Shown here: one piece after another, positions 17,824-24,859 of the stretch | Layout of the letters: the number at the start of each line of letters is the position of its first letter | Position numbering within the stretch: position 1 is the first letter of the stretch | Assembly: GCA_016209635.1 (NCBI GenBank) | Contig: JACQWC010000258.1 | Span: 1 to 46,852, forward strand | Direction of reading: 5' to 3' | DNA length: 46,852 nt | From: Candidatus Rokuibacteriota bacterium | Lineage (GTDB): Bacteria > Methylomirabilota > Methylomirabilia > Rokubacteriales > CSP1-6 | The notes under the pieces: model-generated | What the model was told of the DNA's origin: nothing | Databases searched by the model: none | Seen by the model: the letters and a program-made list of their open reading frames with translations, nothing else | Made by a program: the position numbers and the translations under genes

Positions 17824-19113
17824 ATGGACGGAGTCTTCCGCCCCGACGCGCACACCCACAACCCGATCGTCCGCTACTTCAAGCTTCTCGGCCCGGGCCT
17901 CGCGACCGGGGCCTCCGACGACGACCCGAGCGGCATCACCACCTACTCGGTCGCCGGCGCCTCCCTGGGCTACGGGATGCTCTGGACCGCCATCGCGACC
18001 GCTCCCATGATGATCGCCATCCAGCTCATCTGCGCGCGGATCGGCCTCGTCACCGGTCAGGGCGTGGCCGCCGCCCTGCGTCACCACTACCCGCGACCGT
18101 TCCTCTACGCGGCGTGCCTCCTGCTCCTCGCGGCCAACGTCTTCAACATCAGCGCGGACCTCGGCGGTATGGCCGAGGCCGCGGCGCTCCTGACCGGTGT
18201 CCCGTCTATCGTCTTCGTCCCCCTGTTCGGCCTGGCGATCACGGCGGTCACCGTGTACTCGAGCTACGCGACGTTCGCCCGCTCGCTCAAGTGGCTGACT
18301 GCCGTCCTGTTCGCCTACGTCGCCGCGGCGCTCCTCGCGCGCCCCGACTGGAACGCGGCCGTCCGCGCGAGCGTGCTGCCGCGGATGGGGTGGGACCCGA
18401 CCACCGTCGCCACGCTGGTCGGCATCCTGGGGACGACGATCTCGCCGTATCTCTTCTTCTGGCAGGCGTCGCAGGAGGTCGAGGGGGAGCGGGCGCACGG
18501 CCGGCGGACACTCGCGCAGCGGCGGGGGGCGACCGCCCACGAGCTTGGGGACGCGCGCCTGGACGTGATGACCGGGATGTTCTTCTCGAACCTCGTGATG
18601 TACTTCATCATCCTGGCGACGGCGTCGACGCTCTATCGCGGCGGCGTCCATGACATCGCGACCGCGAGGGAGGCCGCCGAGGCGCTGAGACCCCTGGCGG
18701 GCGACGGCGCGTACGTCCTCTTCGGCCTGGGGCTGATCGGGACCGGGCTCCTGGCGATCCCCATCCTCGCCGGGTCCGCCTCGTTCGCGGTCGCCGAGCT
18801 GTTCGGCTGGCGCTCGGGGCTCGACCTCGCCCCGCGCCGGGCACACCGGTTCTACCTGGTCCTGGCGGGGGCGATCGTCGGCGGGATGGTCCTCGATCTC
18901 TTCGAGACCAACCCGATCCGGATGCTCTTCCTCTCCGCCGTGCTCAACGGGATCCTCGCCCCGCCGCTCCTCGTGCTCGTCATGCTCGTCGGCGCGAACG
19001 GCAAGATCATGGGCGAGCACACGAACGGGTTCTGGCTGAACCTCCTCGGCTGGGCGACGACCGCGGTGATGACGCTGGGGGCCGTCGCCTTCCTCCTCAC
19101 CTCACTGGCGTAG
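17824..19113 (+). CDS. Nramp-like divalent cation transporter with altered metal-site motifs
   Basis: 429 residues with about eleven hydrophobic segments. The start of helix 1 reads GPGLATGASDDDPSGITTYSVAG, and helix 6 reads GTTISPYLFFWQASQEVEGE. Canonical Nramp transporters have DPGN and MPH there, with Asp, Asn and Met binding Mn/Fe. Here the Asp is kept, the Asn position is Gly and the Met-Pro-His position is Ser-Pro-Tyr. Fold assignment is strong, but specificity for soft transition metals is doubtful; a magnesium-type or other cation role is possible. The 3' end overlaps the convergent protease gene by 12 nt. Confidence 0.85.
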   Translation: MDGVFRPDAHTHNPIVRYFKLLGPGLATGASDDDPSGITTYSVAGASLGYGMLWTAIATAPMMIAIQLICARIGLVTGQGVAAALRHHYPRPFLYAACLLLLAANVFNISADLGGMAEAAALLTGVPSIVFVPLFGLAITAVTVYSSYATFARSLKWLTAVLFAYVAAALLARPDWNAAVRASVLPRMGWDPTTVATLVGILGTTISPYLFFWQASQEVEGERAHGRRTLAQRRGATAHELGDARLDVMTGMFFSNLVMYFIILATASTLYRGGVHDIATAREAAEALRPLAGDGAYVLFGLGLIGTGLLAIPILAGSASFAVAELFGWRSGLDLAPRRAHRFYLVLAGAIVGGMVLDLFETNPIRMLFLSAVLNGILAPPLLVLVMLVGANGKIMGEHTNGFWLNLLGWATTAVMTLGAVAFLLTSLA

Positions 19114-20286
19114 CTGGTTTCCCGGCGATGGGGGCGGAATACGCCGCTCGGCGCCTGGTGTCACGGTGCCCGGCGGGACGTCGCCAGGCAGCAGGGGCCG
19201 CTCGGGCAGGCGGTACTCCACGTCGCGGTACTCCCCGTCCCTGTAGACCGTCAGCCGCACGGTCTCGCCCACCTTGAGCGACCGCATCGCCTCGATAATC
19301 GTGTCGGGGGAGTTGAGCCGCGTCGTGTTCAGGCTCGTGACGATGTCGCCGCCGATGAGGATCTCCCGTCCCCCGATCGCGATCTCGAGCTGTCCGCCCC
19401 GGATCCCCGCCTGCTCGGCCGGGCTCCCCGGCTCGATCACCTCGACCAGGAGACCCTCCACGAGGGGGATCCGGAGGAGCTCGCGGAGCGCGGGGTCGAC
19501 GTGCTGCCCGTGAAACCCGATCCACGGGCGAACGACCCGGCCCCGGGCGAGGAGCGCGGGGATCACCGCCTTGACCAGGTTGATCGGGATCGCGAAACCG
19601 ATGTTCTGGGCGTCGGGGATGATCGACGTGTTGATGCCGATGACCTCGCCGCACGCGTTCAGGAGCGGACCCCCGGAGTTGCCCGGGTTGATGGGCGCGT
19701 CGGTCTGGATGAGCGGCTCGTAGAGCGAGAGCGGGGTCTCGGGGAGGATCCGGTTGATCGCGGAGACCACGCCGCGGGTCAGGCTCTGGCTGAGGCCGAG
19801 CGGGTTTCCGATCGCGATGACGTCCTCGCCCACGCGGAGGCTGTCGGAGTCGCCGAGCGCGGCCGCGGGCAGCCCCCCCTTGGCGGGCGGGGGAATACGC
19901 AGGAGGGCCAGGTCGAAGATCGGGTCGGCGCCGACCAGCTCCGCCTGCTGGATCGTGCCGTCGTTGAGCGTCACGGTGATCGACTGACGGCCGAACGCCA
20001 CGTGAGAGTTGGTCAGGACGAGCCCCGCGGGGTCGACGATCACTCCCGATCCCACGATCCGCGTCACCCGGTCGGTCAACTGGTAGGGATTGATGGACTT
20101 GGCCGCGATGAAGACCACGGTGGGAGCGACCTCGGCGAAGATGTCGGGGATCGGTTTCGAGCAGCGCGCGCGCTCCGCGGCGGCGCCCTCTCCCGCGATG
20201 CTGCAGGAGGCGAGCGGGGCGACGAGGAGCAGGAGGAGGACGGCGGTGGCGCTCGACCTGGCGGACCGGGAGCGGGGCACGCGCAT
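19102..20286 (-). CDS. HtrA/DegP-family serine protease with lipoprotein signal
   Basis: 394 residues. The N-terminus has a signal sequence ending in lipobox LASC, predicting a lipid-anchored periplasmic protease instead of the usual soluble DegP. The trypsin-like domain has His in LTNSHVAF, Asp in IFDLALLRI and Ser in INPGNSGGPLLN. One PDZ domain follows (EQAGIRGGQLEIAIGGREILIGGDIV...). A single PDZ resembles DegS-type proteins. Expected role is envelope protein quality control. It lies 10 nt after the DUF4337-like gene in the same minus-strand operon. Confidence 0.92.
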   Translation of the reverse strand: MRVPRSRSARSSATAVLLLLLVAPLASCSIAGEGAAAERARCSKPIPDIFAEVAPTVVFIAAKSINPYQLTDRVTRIVGSGVIVDPAGLVLTNSHVAFGRQSITVTLNDGTIQQAELVGADPIFDLALLRIPPPAKGGLPAAALGDSDSLRVGEDVIAIGNPLGLSQSLTRGVVSAINRILPETPLSLYEPLIQTDAPINPGNSGGPLLNACGEVIGINTSIIPDAQNIGFAIPINLVKAVIPALLARGRVVRPWIGFHGQHVDPALRELLRIPLVEGLLVEVIEPGSPAEQAGIRGGQLEIAIGGREILIGGDIVTSLNTTRLNSPDTIIEAMRSLKVGETVRLTVYRDGEYRDVEYRLPERPLLPGDVPPGTVTPGAERRIPPPSPGNQLRQ

Positions 20287-20296
20287 CCTGCGCGCC

Positions 20297-20887
20297 TCAG
20301 TGGCCGTGGAGGACGGGGAGGCGGACGAGCAGCGCGAACCCGTTGATCGTGGACACGGCGCCGAGGACGGCCAGCGAGGCGGAGAACCAGAACATCGGGC
20401 GAGACGTCGAGAGGATCGAGACCGACGCGCAGACGATCGCGATCTGGAGGAACACCTCGGCGTAGTCGAAGTACGGGTCGCGATCCCGGTTCACGTCGCG
20501 CTCGCGCTCGAGCTTCTTCGCATCCTTCTCGATATCCTTCTTCTCCGCGCTGTAGCGCTTCTCCTCCTCGGCGAACTTCCTCGCCAAGGCCTCCAGGTGG
20601 GGCCGCTCCGGGCCCCGCCCGGAGGACGGCACGGCGAGCTGGGCCTCGAGGAGGAGTTTCTGCATGCGGTACTGGTGCTCGCGGATCACCTTCGCCTGGT
20701 AGAAAGCCCACTGGTCGGAGGACTGCTGCTGGGCGAGGAGCATCTCCTTCATCGCGTTGTTCCCGCCCAGCGACGCGATGGCGAGAACCACGGCGTAGAC
20801 GGCGGTGGTGAGGGCAACGCGACGGCTGAACGCCCTTTCGCCCCGCTCGCTCAGCTCTTGCGGGTCGGGGAGCTCGACCTCAGCCAC
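20297..20887 (-). CDS. DUF4337-like membrane protein
   Basis: 196 residues from GTG at 20887 (VAEVELPDPQELSERGERAF). One helix near the N-terminus (RRVALTTAVYAVVLAIASLGGNNAM) is followed by a charged coiled-coil (KFAEEEKRYSAEKKDIEKDAKKLERERD). Two more helices lie at the C-terminus (EVFLQIAIVCASVSILS, MFWFSASLAVLGAVSTINGFALL). The pattern NNAMKEML...QQQSSDQWAFYQAKVIREHQY is typical of DUF4337. Function unknown. The start overlaps the end of the YtxH gene by 8 nt; the longer track ORF to 21178 is a shadow of YtxH. Confidence 0.82.
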   Translation of the reverse strand: MAEVELPDPQELSERGERAFSRRVALTTAVYAVVLAIASLGGNNAMKEMLLAQQQSSDQWAFYQAKVIREHQYRMQKLLLEAQLAVPSSGRGPERPHLEALARKFAEEEKRYSAEKKDIEKDAKKLERERDVNRDRDPYFDYAEVFLQIAIVCASVSILSTSRPMFWFSASLAVLGAVSTINGFALLVRLPVLHGH

Positions 20888-21197
20888 GCTCGGCGGCGGC
20901 CTCCTTCCGGATCTCCTCCCGCATCGCTTCGCGTCCCGCCTCGAAGGCGGTGACGAGGCGCTGCGTTTGCTCCTCGAAGACCTCGCGGCTCTTGTCCAGC
21001 CACTCGCCTGCGCGGCCCTGGGCCTCGGTGGCCATCTCCCCCGCCTTCCGGGCGAGCTCGCTGCTGCGCTCGGCCAGGAGCTCGCGGGCCTCGCGCCCCG
21101 TGCGCGGTGCGAGGAGCAGCGCGGCGGCGGCGCCAGCCAGGGCGCCGAAGAAGAACCAGCCGAGGTACCCGGCCGCATCGTTTCTGTTGTCGCTCAT
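20880..21197 (-). CDS. YtxH-domain protein
   Basis: 105 residues: a single N-terminal helix (YLGWFFFGALAGAAAALLLAPRTGREARELLAERSSEL) followed by a long amphipathic helix. LLLAPRTGREARELL is the YtxH signature. Members are small membrane-anchored, stress-related proteins without a defined biochemical role. It overlaps the DUF948 gene by 4 nt (ATGA). Confidence 0.9.
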   Translation of the reverse strand: MSDNRNDAAGYLGWFFFGALAGAAAALLLAPRTGREARELLAERSSELARKAGEMATEAQGRAGEWLDKSREVFEEQTQRLVTAFEAGREAMREEIRKEAAAERG

Positions 21198-21583
21198 GAC
21201 CCGTCTCCTTGTTCCCTTCGCAGCCGATGCACGAACACGTCGATGCCCTTCCGGATGCCCGCGGCCACGCCGATGAGCTGCCCGGCCCGCGTCAGCCCCA
21301 TGAGTCCCGTCGCAAGACGGCCGAGCCCCTGCGACAGCGCGTCGATCCGCTCGACCATGACGCCGAACCGGCCCAGCTCCCGATCGGCCTGACGGCTGAG
21401 CGCTTGGAGGTCTTCGGTGAGGGCCGCCGCCTGGCCGAGAAGCGGCCGGAGATCCTGCTCGAGCACAGCGAGGATGGTGTCGGCCTTGAGCGCCGCTCGG
21501 CGGATCGCCAGCAGCGCGGGGACCGCCACGACTGTGACGGCCACGACGCAGAGGACGAGGACGAACTGAACCCAGAGGAGCAT
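21194..21583 (-). CDS. DUF948-like membrane protein
   Basis: 129 residues from ATG at 21583: an N-terminal helix (FVLVLCVVAVTVVAVPALLAIR) followed by a heptad-rich segment (VLEQDLRPLLGQAAALTEDLQALSRQADREL). This is the layout of DUF948 proteins, which often neighbour YtxH. It is the first gene of the minus-strand operon. Its ATG is only 9 nt from the -10 box, so the message is probably leaderless. The track ORF to 21874 is over-extended. Confidence 0.8.
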   Translation of the reverse strand: MLLWVQFVLVLCVVAVTVVAVPALLAIRRAALKADTILAVLEQDLRPLLGQAAALTEDLQALSRQADRELGRFGVMVERIDALSQGLGRLATGLMGLTRAGQLIGVAAGIRKGIDVFVHRLRREQGDGS

Positions 21584-21592
21584 GGGGTTCGA

Positions 21593-21622
21593 ATTATCCC
21601 CGCAAAGAATGCAGAAAGTCAA
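21593..21622 (-). promoter_or_regulatory. Promoter of the DUF948-YtxH-DUF4337-HtrA operon
   Basis: On the minus strand TTGACT (21622-21617), an 18-bp spacer and GATAAT (21598-21593) form a clear sigma70-type promoter. The ATG at 21583 begins 9 nt after the -10, predicting a very short or absent leader. The -35 lies in the left arm of the 9-bp dyad. Confidence 0.75.
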
Positions 21623-21638
21623 TAAATCCATTGACTTT
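21615..21638. repeat. Perfect 9-bp dyad holding both -35 boxes
   Basis: aaagtcaat (21615-21623) and attgacttt (21630-21638) are perfect inverted repeats around the 6-nt centre aaatcc. Each arm contains TTGACT on its own strand, so the dyad consists of two diverging -35 boxes. It may also serve as an operator for a dimeric regulator. Confidence 0.85.
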
Positions 21639-21660
21639 GCGAGATTCCGCTCCCTATAAT
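21631..21660 (+). promoter_or_regulatory. Promoter of the pccB-mutase operon
   Basis: TTGACT (21631-21636), an 18-bp spacer and consensus TATAAT (21655-21660). Expected transcription start is near 21667, leaving a leader of about 44 nt before the pccB ATG. The promoter lies back to back with that of the minus-strand envelope operon. Confidence 0.85.
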
Positions 21661-21710: not shown

Positions 21711-23257
<1,547 letters not shown>

Positions 23258-23261
<4 letters not shown>

Positions 23262-24859
23262 GCGCGACCGGCGACGAGCGGAAGCCCCGGTTCCTGACCT
23301 CTTGGGGGACGCCGCTCGAGCGCGTCTACGGGCCGGGTGGCGTCTCCCGCCCGGTCGGAGAGGACCCGCTCGGCGGGCCGGGGGAGTTCCCCTACACGCG
23401 GGGCGTCCACCCCACCATGTATCGCGGGCGGTTCTGGACCATGCGACAGTACGCGGGGTTCGGCTCGGCCGCCGAGACGAACAAGCGCTACCGAGTCCTG
23501 CTCGAGCAGGGGCAAACCGGACTGTCGGTCGCCTTCGACCTCCCGACCCAGATGGGCTACGATCCCGACGCTCGACTCGCGCGCGGCGAGGTGGGCAGGG
23601 TCGGCGTGTCGATCGCATCCCTCGAGGACATGCAGGACCTCTTCGAGGGGATTCCGCTCGATCGCGTCTCGACCTCGATGACGATCAACGCGACCGCCTC
23701 CGTGCTCCTGGCGCTCTACATCGTCGTCGCGCGGCGGGGCGGCGTCGCGACCGACCGCCTCTCGGGGACGGTGCAGAACGACATCCTGAAGGAGTACATC
23801 GCCCGCGGCACCTACATCTTCCCCCCGGGCCCCTCCATGCGGCTGATTACCGACGTGTTCGCCTACTGCAAGCAACACGTGCCGCGGTGGAACACGATCT
23901 CCATCTCGGGCTACCACATGCGCGAGGCCGGGTCCACGGCCGTGCAGGAGGTCGCCTTCACGCTCGCCAACGCGATCGCCTACGTGCGCGCGGCCCAGGA
24001 GGCCGGACTCACGATCGACGAGTTCGCGCCGCAGCTCTCCTTCTTCTTCAACGCCCACAACAACCTCGTGGAGGAGGTCGCGAAGTTCCGCGCCGCCCGC
24101 CGCCTGTGGGCGCGCATCATGCGTGACCGCTTCGGCGCCCGCGATCCGCGAGCGATGATGCTGCGCTTCCACGCACAGACCGCGGGCAGCATGCTCACCG
24201 CGCAGCAGCCGGAGAACAACATCGTGCGGGTCGCCATCCAGGCCCTGGCCGCGGTGCTGGGCGGCTGCCAGTCGCTCCACACGAACTCGATGGACGAGGC
24301 GCTCGCGCTGCCGACCGAGGCCGCCGTCCGCATCGCGCTCCGGACGCAGCAGATCCTCGCGTACGAGTCCGGCGTGGCCGACACGATCGATCCGCTCGGG
24401 GGGGCCTTCGCGGTCGAGCGGCTGACGCGCGAGATCGAGGAAGGGGCGGAGGCCTATATCCGGACGATCGACGACCTGGGCGGCTCCGTGGCGGCGATCC
24501 CCTTCATGCAGCGGGAAATCCAGGACGCCGCGTACCGCTACCAGCGGGAGGTCGAGGACAAGGCGCGCATCGTGGTGGGCGTGAACGAGTTCGTGACCGA
24601 CGATCCTCCGCCGGTCGACCTCTTCCAAGTCGACCCCTCCATCGGCGGCGCGCTCGCCGACCGACTCCAGCGCCTCCGGGCCGCGCGCGACCGTGACCGC
24701 GCGGAGCGCGCGCTGGACGCGCTCGAGCGGGGCGCCCGGGGGCGGGCGAACCTCATGCCCCTCATCGTTGATGCGATCGACGCGGCGGTGACGCTGGGCG
24801 AGATCTGCGACCGGCTGCGCGCCGTCTTCGGCGCCCACGCGCCGTCGGTGACGTTTTGA
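23258..24859 (+). CDS. Methylmalonyl-CoA mutase, catalytic (N-terminal domain) subunit
   Basis: 533 residues of the B12-dependent mutase TIM barrel: [89 protein letters not shown] and [32 protein letters not shown]. The tyrosine in RQYAGF favours methylmalonyl-CoA over isobutyryl-CoA mutase. No C-terminal cobalamin-binding domain is present (no DxHxxG), so a separate small B12 subunit must be encoded elsewhere. ATG overlaps the pccB stop (ATGA), and the stop overlaps the next start (TTGA). Confidence 0.92.

Follow-up and report, generated by a model that had tools for sequence, protein, structure and literature searches.

Between a pccB-like gene and a divergently transcribed gene for a DUF948-like membrane protein lies a predicted promoter pair that is real, conserved, and divergent; its palindromic core is unusual, and an element upstream is conserved as well. 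The pair was found in the window, that is, the whole stretch of 46,852 nucleotides analyzed here, from contig JACQWC010000258.1 of a Candidatus Rokuibacteriota bacterium. The reading that we consider likely is one of two back-to-back sigma70-type housekeeping promoters, which would share a 24-bp core that includes an upstream contact, would be served by competing polymerases, would give a leaderless minus mRNA, and would have reached their tight form from a wider one. The genes and promoter elements concerned are as follows.

21711 to 23261, plus strand: pccB-like carboxyltransferase subunit.
23258 to 24859, plus strand: methylmalonyl-CoA mutase large subunit, overlapping pccB.
21194 to 21583, minus strand: DUF948-like membrane protein of 129 aa, the first minus-side gene (profile match with E 4.7e-5, below the Pfam cut-off; relatives).
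20880 to 21197, minus strand: YtxH-like protein.
20297 to 20752, minus strand: DUF4337 protein.
19102 to 20286, minus strand: HtrA/Do-type serine protease with a PDZ domain, last of the minus gene set.
21615 to 21638, no strand: 24-bp palindromic core with 9-bp arms and a 6-bp center; the two -35 boxes lie in it, as does, on either strand, the AAAG patch that belongs to the promoter opposite (sequence, conservation).
21631 to 21636, plus strand: -35 box TTGACT of the pccB promoter, unchanged in 19 representative relatives with a plus promoter.
21655 to 21660, plus strand: -10 box TATAAT of the pccB promoter, after an 18-bp spacer (sequence, relatives).
21617 to 21622, minus strand: -35 box TTGACT of the minus promoter (sequence, relatives).
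21593 to 21598, minus strand: -10 box GATAAT of the minus promoter, after an 18-bp spacer and 9 nt before the ATG (sequence, relatives).
21615 to 21630, plus strand: upstream element of the plus promoter, AAAG at 21615-21618 and AWYCR at 21626-21630 (conserved; absent from 40 other family promoters).
21667, plus strand: predicted transcription start of the pccB operon, 7 nt past the -10 box (sequence).
21586, minus strand: predicted transcription start of the minus operon, with a leader of about 3 nt (sequence, relatives).

The hexamers, the spacers, the 9-bp perfect inverted repeat, and the 8 bp between the -35 boxes, as read in the original prediction, were all correct when we re-read the letters directly. 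The plus promoter has TTGACT at 21631-21636 and TATAAT at 21655-21660, the minus promoter has TTGACT at 21622-21617 and GATAAT at 21598-21593, and both -35 boxes fall within AAAGTCAAT (21615-21623)-N6-ATTGACTTT (21630-21638), whose arms are 100% complementary. Under a crude i.i.d. model, the 9-bp inverted repeat by itself is unremarkable, with ∼11 expected per window; for a divergent pair of such promoters, the same model gives a chance expectation of ∼2e-10 per window. A scan of 16 kb returned just these two sigma70-like sites (shuffles gave 0.5 +/- 0.6). The sole occurrence of TTGAC-N18..20-TATAAT in the 4.16-Mb genome is the pccB promoter, and a search for the dyad that tolerated up to 3 mismatches gave one genome-wide copy, at pccB. 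The intergenic region is 127 bp long and contains separate -10 boxes, with the two predicted starts ∼81 bp apart. By its predicted elements, the arrangement is a divergent sigma70 pair, with -35 and -10 boxes spaced at 16-19 bp on both strands, each set upstream of a gene and kept in relatives as promoter elements.

The gene arrangement is conserved across the family, in keeping with the claim that the pair serves propionyl-CoA carboxylase/mutase on one side and a gene set that ends in HtrA on the other. By PccB identity (86-88%), the closest named genomes are Ca. Rokubacteria. The DUF948-like gene was found in 54 of 57 family genomes, and comparison of coordinates places it divergent from and adjoining pccB in 52 of the 53 that have this pccB. 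Its start codon at 21583 is supported by the relatives, whose proteins begin M..W.Q; an extra in-frame ATG upstream has no counterpart in them. The one exception to the arrangement is G010, where pccB has moved ∼4.7 kb (L216, contig C81) and now stands beside a sodium-pump decarboxylase-like gene and a biotin carrier. We note that copies of the 24-bp palindrome occur there at both the old and the new pccB site.

Across the 57 family genomes, TTGAC-N18/19-TATAMT occurs at 316 sites against 3 for the reversed control, and the sites sampled include 6S RNA loci, which together mark it as the housekeeping promoter class of the family. Matches to 6S RNA (RF00013) lie at strong TTGAC-N18-TATACT promoters in L221, L228, L231, L237, and L245, where the DNA upstream of the -35 box is also conserved. 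A further promoter, TTGACTTTCTTTTTTnCAGCCGCCTATACT (L220 and its orthologues), is near-identical in many genera, spacer included, and is without an Rfam match. Leaderless-type starts, taken as start codons with a -10 box some 6-9 nt upstream, appear to be common in the family, as TATAMT-N6..9-ATG is found 1845 times versus 187 in the reversed control, an approximately tenfold excess; the corresponding numbers for TATAMT-N16..19-ATG are 458 and 215. The minus -10 box of the window ends 9 nt upstream of its ATG, and in 38 loci this distance is 8-10 nt. The minus mRNA, predicted to start 2-3 nt before the ATG, is probably leaderless. No paper in the literature that we searched joins "leaderless" with "Rokubacteria". 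On the plus side, a structured 5′ leader of pccB was sought by folding score and rejected (z-score -0.45).

The original prediction proposed a search for conserved dyads upstream of pccB orthologues. What is conserved there is the promoter pair; the distance between the hexamers is not. The -35 boxes are 8 bp apart in the tight group (7 bp in L033), 28-32 bp apart in basal family members, and 20 bp apart in a different family within the order, in a comparison of draft assemblies throughout that omits the minus-site values of L032 and L035, where other minus sites had been picked. One hexamer has decayed beside an intact partner in L014 and L015, and one is gone in L025 and L179. Since the gap varies and the hexamers decay independently, a fixed hexamer dyad read by a regulator is unlikely, and by these comparisons the pair is two separate promoters rather than one such dyad bound by a dimer. 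A fixed helical phase of the gap (8 versus 29 bp, two turns) was also considered and is weakened by gaps of 20, 28, 30, 31, and 32 bp.

Beyond the hexamers, position-wise conservation of the plus promoter picks out two blocks before TTGACTT: AAAG, 16-13 bp ahead of it, and AWYCR, 5-1 bp ahead, which fall at about -51 and -41 relative to the predicted start. The spacer positions that neighbor them have drifted completely. Both blocks are still conserved when the wide-gap group, whose opposite -35 box has another position, is taken by itself (two of the positions have A in 14 of 15 rows). No such conservation was seen upstream of 40 other family promoters, and an upstream A-patch as a general feature of the promoters of the family was dropped. 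Searched family-wide with one mismatch, the extended element occurs almost exclusively at pcc. It matches both strands in the tight form, because each TTGACTTT supplies the AAAG of the other promoter, and the minus strand only in state C. UP elements are A-patches near -41 and -51 upstream of strong promoters, bound by the C-terminal domain of the polymerase alpha subunit. The window likewise has A-patches near -41 and -51, counted from the predicted start, to which binding is putative; unlike UP elements, its patches are short, and the tight form places them in the -35 region of the opposite promoter. We read the element as a putative UP-type polymerase contact; the main rival reading, which would fit the element equally well, is the operator of a local regulator.

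Such an operator would be the conserved AAAG-N16-CTTT, bound over the -35 boxes by a dedicated dimeric regulator that controls both operons. Although the hexamer gap ranges over 7-32 bp, the AAG-N16-CTT spacing is kept in 9 of 12 tight loci, 8 of 14 wide loci (four more have N15), both F loci, and all 17 C loci, state C being one clade that counts as about one event, and other spacings are rare. This retained spacing is what speaks for a dimer, together with the restriction of the element to pcc rather than to promoters in general; against it, the sequence between the half-sites varies by group, and the element is absent in all D and E loci, where the gene pair persists. G010 retains the left arm next to pccB, though no minus -10 box follows. 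The bare two-hexamer model leaves that arm unexplained, and it would fit either a UP-type contact or an operator. None of the window genes scanned proved to be a regulator, and no second target of the dyad recurs across the family, where it totals 57 against 25 for the control and the one site in the window's own genome is pcc. A global regulon of the dyad was rejected on the same ground. What stands of the shared dimeric regulator originally proposed is the conserved, pcc-specific AAAG and CTT 16 bp apart; the variable gap, the independent decay of the hexamers, the near-confinement of the element to pcc, and the lack of a regulator in that scan count against it, and we regard the operator as unlikely overall.

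We infer the activity, competition, and regulation of the promoter pair from sequence. In the reading of two competing promoters that we prefer, each housekeeping promoter would drive one side of the conserved divergent gene pair, and the tight form would use one 24-bp stretch as -35 box and upstream contact for both. The TTT of each TTGACTTT would form the A-patch near -51 of the other promoter, as in a UP element, so that two polymerases would compete for the shared upstream DNA and strong firing in one direction would lower the other. Competition is plausible, given that the two promoters are close to consensus and that their counterparts in relatives overlap even more or use a common -10 box. 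The original prediction held that two polymerases could hardly bind together; with predicted starts ∼81 bp apart, their simultaneous binding is possible. The symmetry could instead be incidental, the pair being two ordinary close promoters without interaction and the extra conserved bases slow-evolving flanks. The gaps of 20 and 28-32 bp in relatives give two polymerases more room, and in E. coli bidirectional promoters, whose starts lie 10-23 bp apart, competition is absent at basal activity and appears once a -35 box is improved (PMC12825309). However, AAAG and AWYCR are conserved though the neighboring spacer has fully drifted, and relatives have compacted the region repeatedly; we judge incidental symmetry to be quite improbable.

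The words TTTGCG / CGCAAA belong to the PccR/ScfR binding motif. A PccR/RamB-type (ScfR family) site that controls pccB, marked by these words beside the dyad where CGCAAAG (21601-21607) and CTTTGCG (21635-21641) form a second inverted repeat, would have a precedent in the PccR-type regulators that control propionyl-CoA carboxylase in alphaproteobacteria (PMC10370305), but it is exceedingly improbable because the words are not kept in the other tight-form relatives, among which TTTGCAAA-type repeats upstream of pccB are not conserved.

Back-to-back divergent sigma70 pairs are known, and this one is an instructive variant. In lambda, PR and PRM form such a pair, with starts ∼80 bp apart, a TTGACT -35 box, and known interference. 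The window resembles them in its two promoters that face apart, its start-to-start distance, its TTGACT, and its possible interference, and differs in that its -35 boxes, 8 bp from each other, make up a perfect palindrome and in that both promoters are near consensus and without an adjacent repressor gene. As in the bidirectional promoters of Warman and Grainger (PMC12825309, PMC10268837), symmetry in promoter DNA would drive divergent mRNAs. In the window, however, the symmetry lies in the -35 region and the predicted starts are ∼81 bp rather than 10-23 bp apart, and separate divergent promoters are not classed as bidirectional (PMC12825309). The window therefore falls outside that class, and L011, L017, L020, L022, and L184, which have a shared palindromic -10 box and starts a predicted ∼21 bp apart, fall within it by their sequence.

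In a tree of 60 PccB proteins, the wide form is basal in the family and the tight form falls in a strongly supported clade (36 rows, 100/99), in line with a tight form that would derive from a wider arrangement, some descendants having compacted further to nested promoters or to one shared palindromic -10 box. The 17 state C loci lie within the tight clade. They have lost the separate plus promoter, have no recognizable strong one, and place the pccB ATG close behind the minus -35 box; their plus strand may rely on TGGAAA-17-GAAACT, a weak nested promoter that lies 9 nt upstream of the ATG. Some internal nodes are weak (for example, the placement of L012 among the C rows), so the number of plus-promoter losses is uncertain. 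A shared palindromic -10 box, ATTATAAT or ATTATACT, appears in three separate places, namely one G007 copy, G028, and G017/G035/G062, and abutting -10 boxes appear in a fourth, G005/G026. The intergenic regions of all these are 24-34 bp long, and those of the shared-only loci 24-27 bp. G028 lies within a C clade, and compared with its neighbor G065 a short deletion turns TTAT...ACTAGG into TTATACTAGG. G007 has two pccB copies, one tight and one with the shared -10 box; its two divergent pccB/DUF948 pairs (L011 and L046) offer an internal comparison within one genome. The shared -10 box of L022 and L184 is 9 nt from one ATG and 7 nt from the other. A stronger version of our preferred reading can be entertained only tentatively: the 24-bp palindrome would be -35 box and upstream contact both ways, making the polymerases exclude each other by design, and several Rokubacterial lineages would have collapsed independently to one palindromic -10 box that drives divergent, near-leaderless mRNAs from a 24-27-bp region.

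The roughly tenfold excess of closely placed -10 boxes suggests that leaderless transcription is common in this uncultured soil phylum. The chief interest of the promoter pair is the series of architectures at one locus, a natural series of separate promoters, a tight mirror-image pair, nested forms, and shared-box forms across more than 20 genera. Bidirectional promoters are described as common among bacteria, and this series opens the question of how they arise, by a step from two promoters to one, to tests with short pieces of synthetic DNA.
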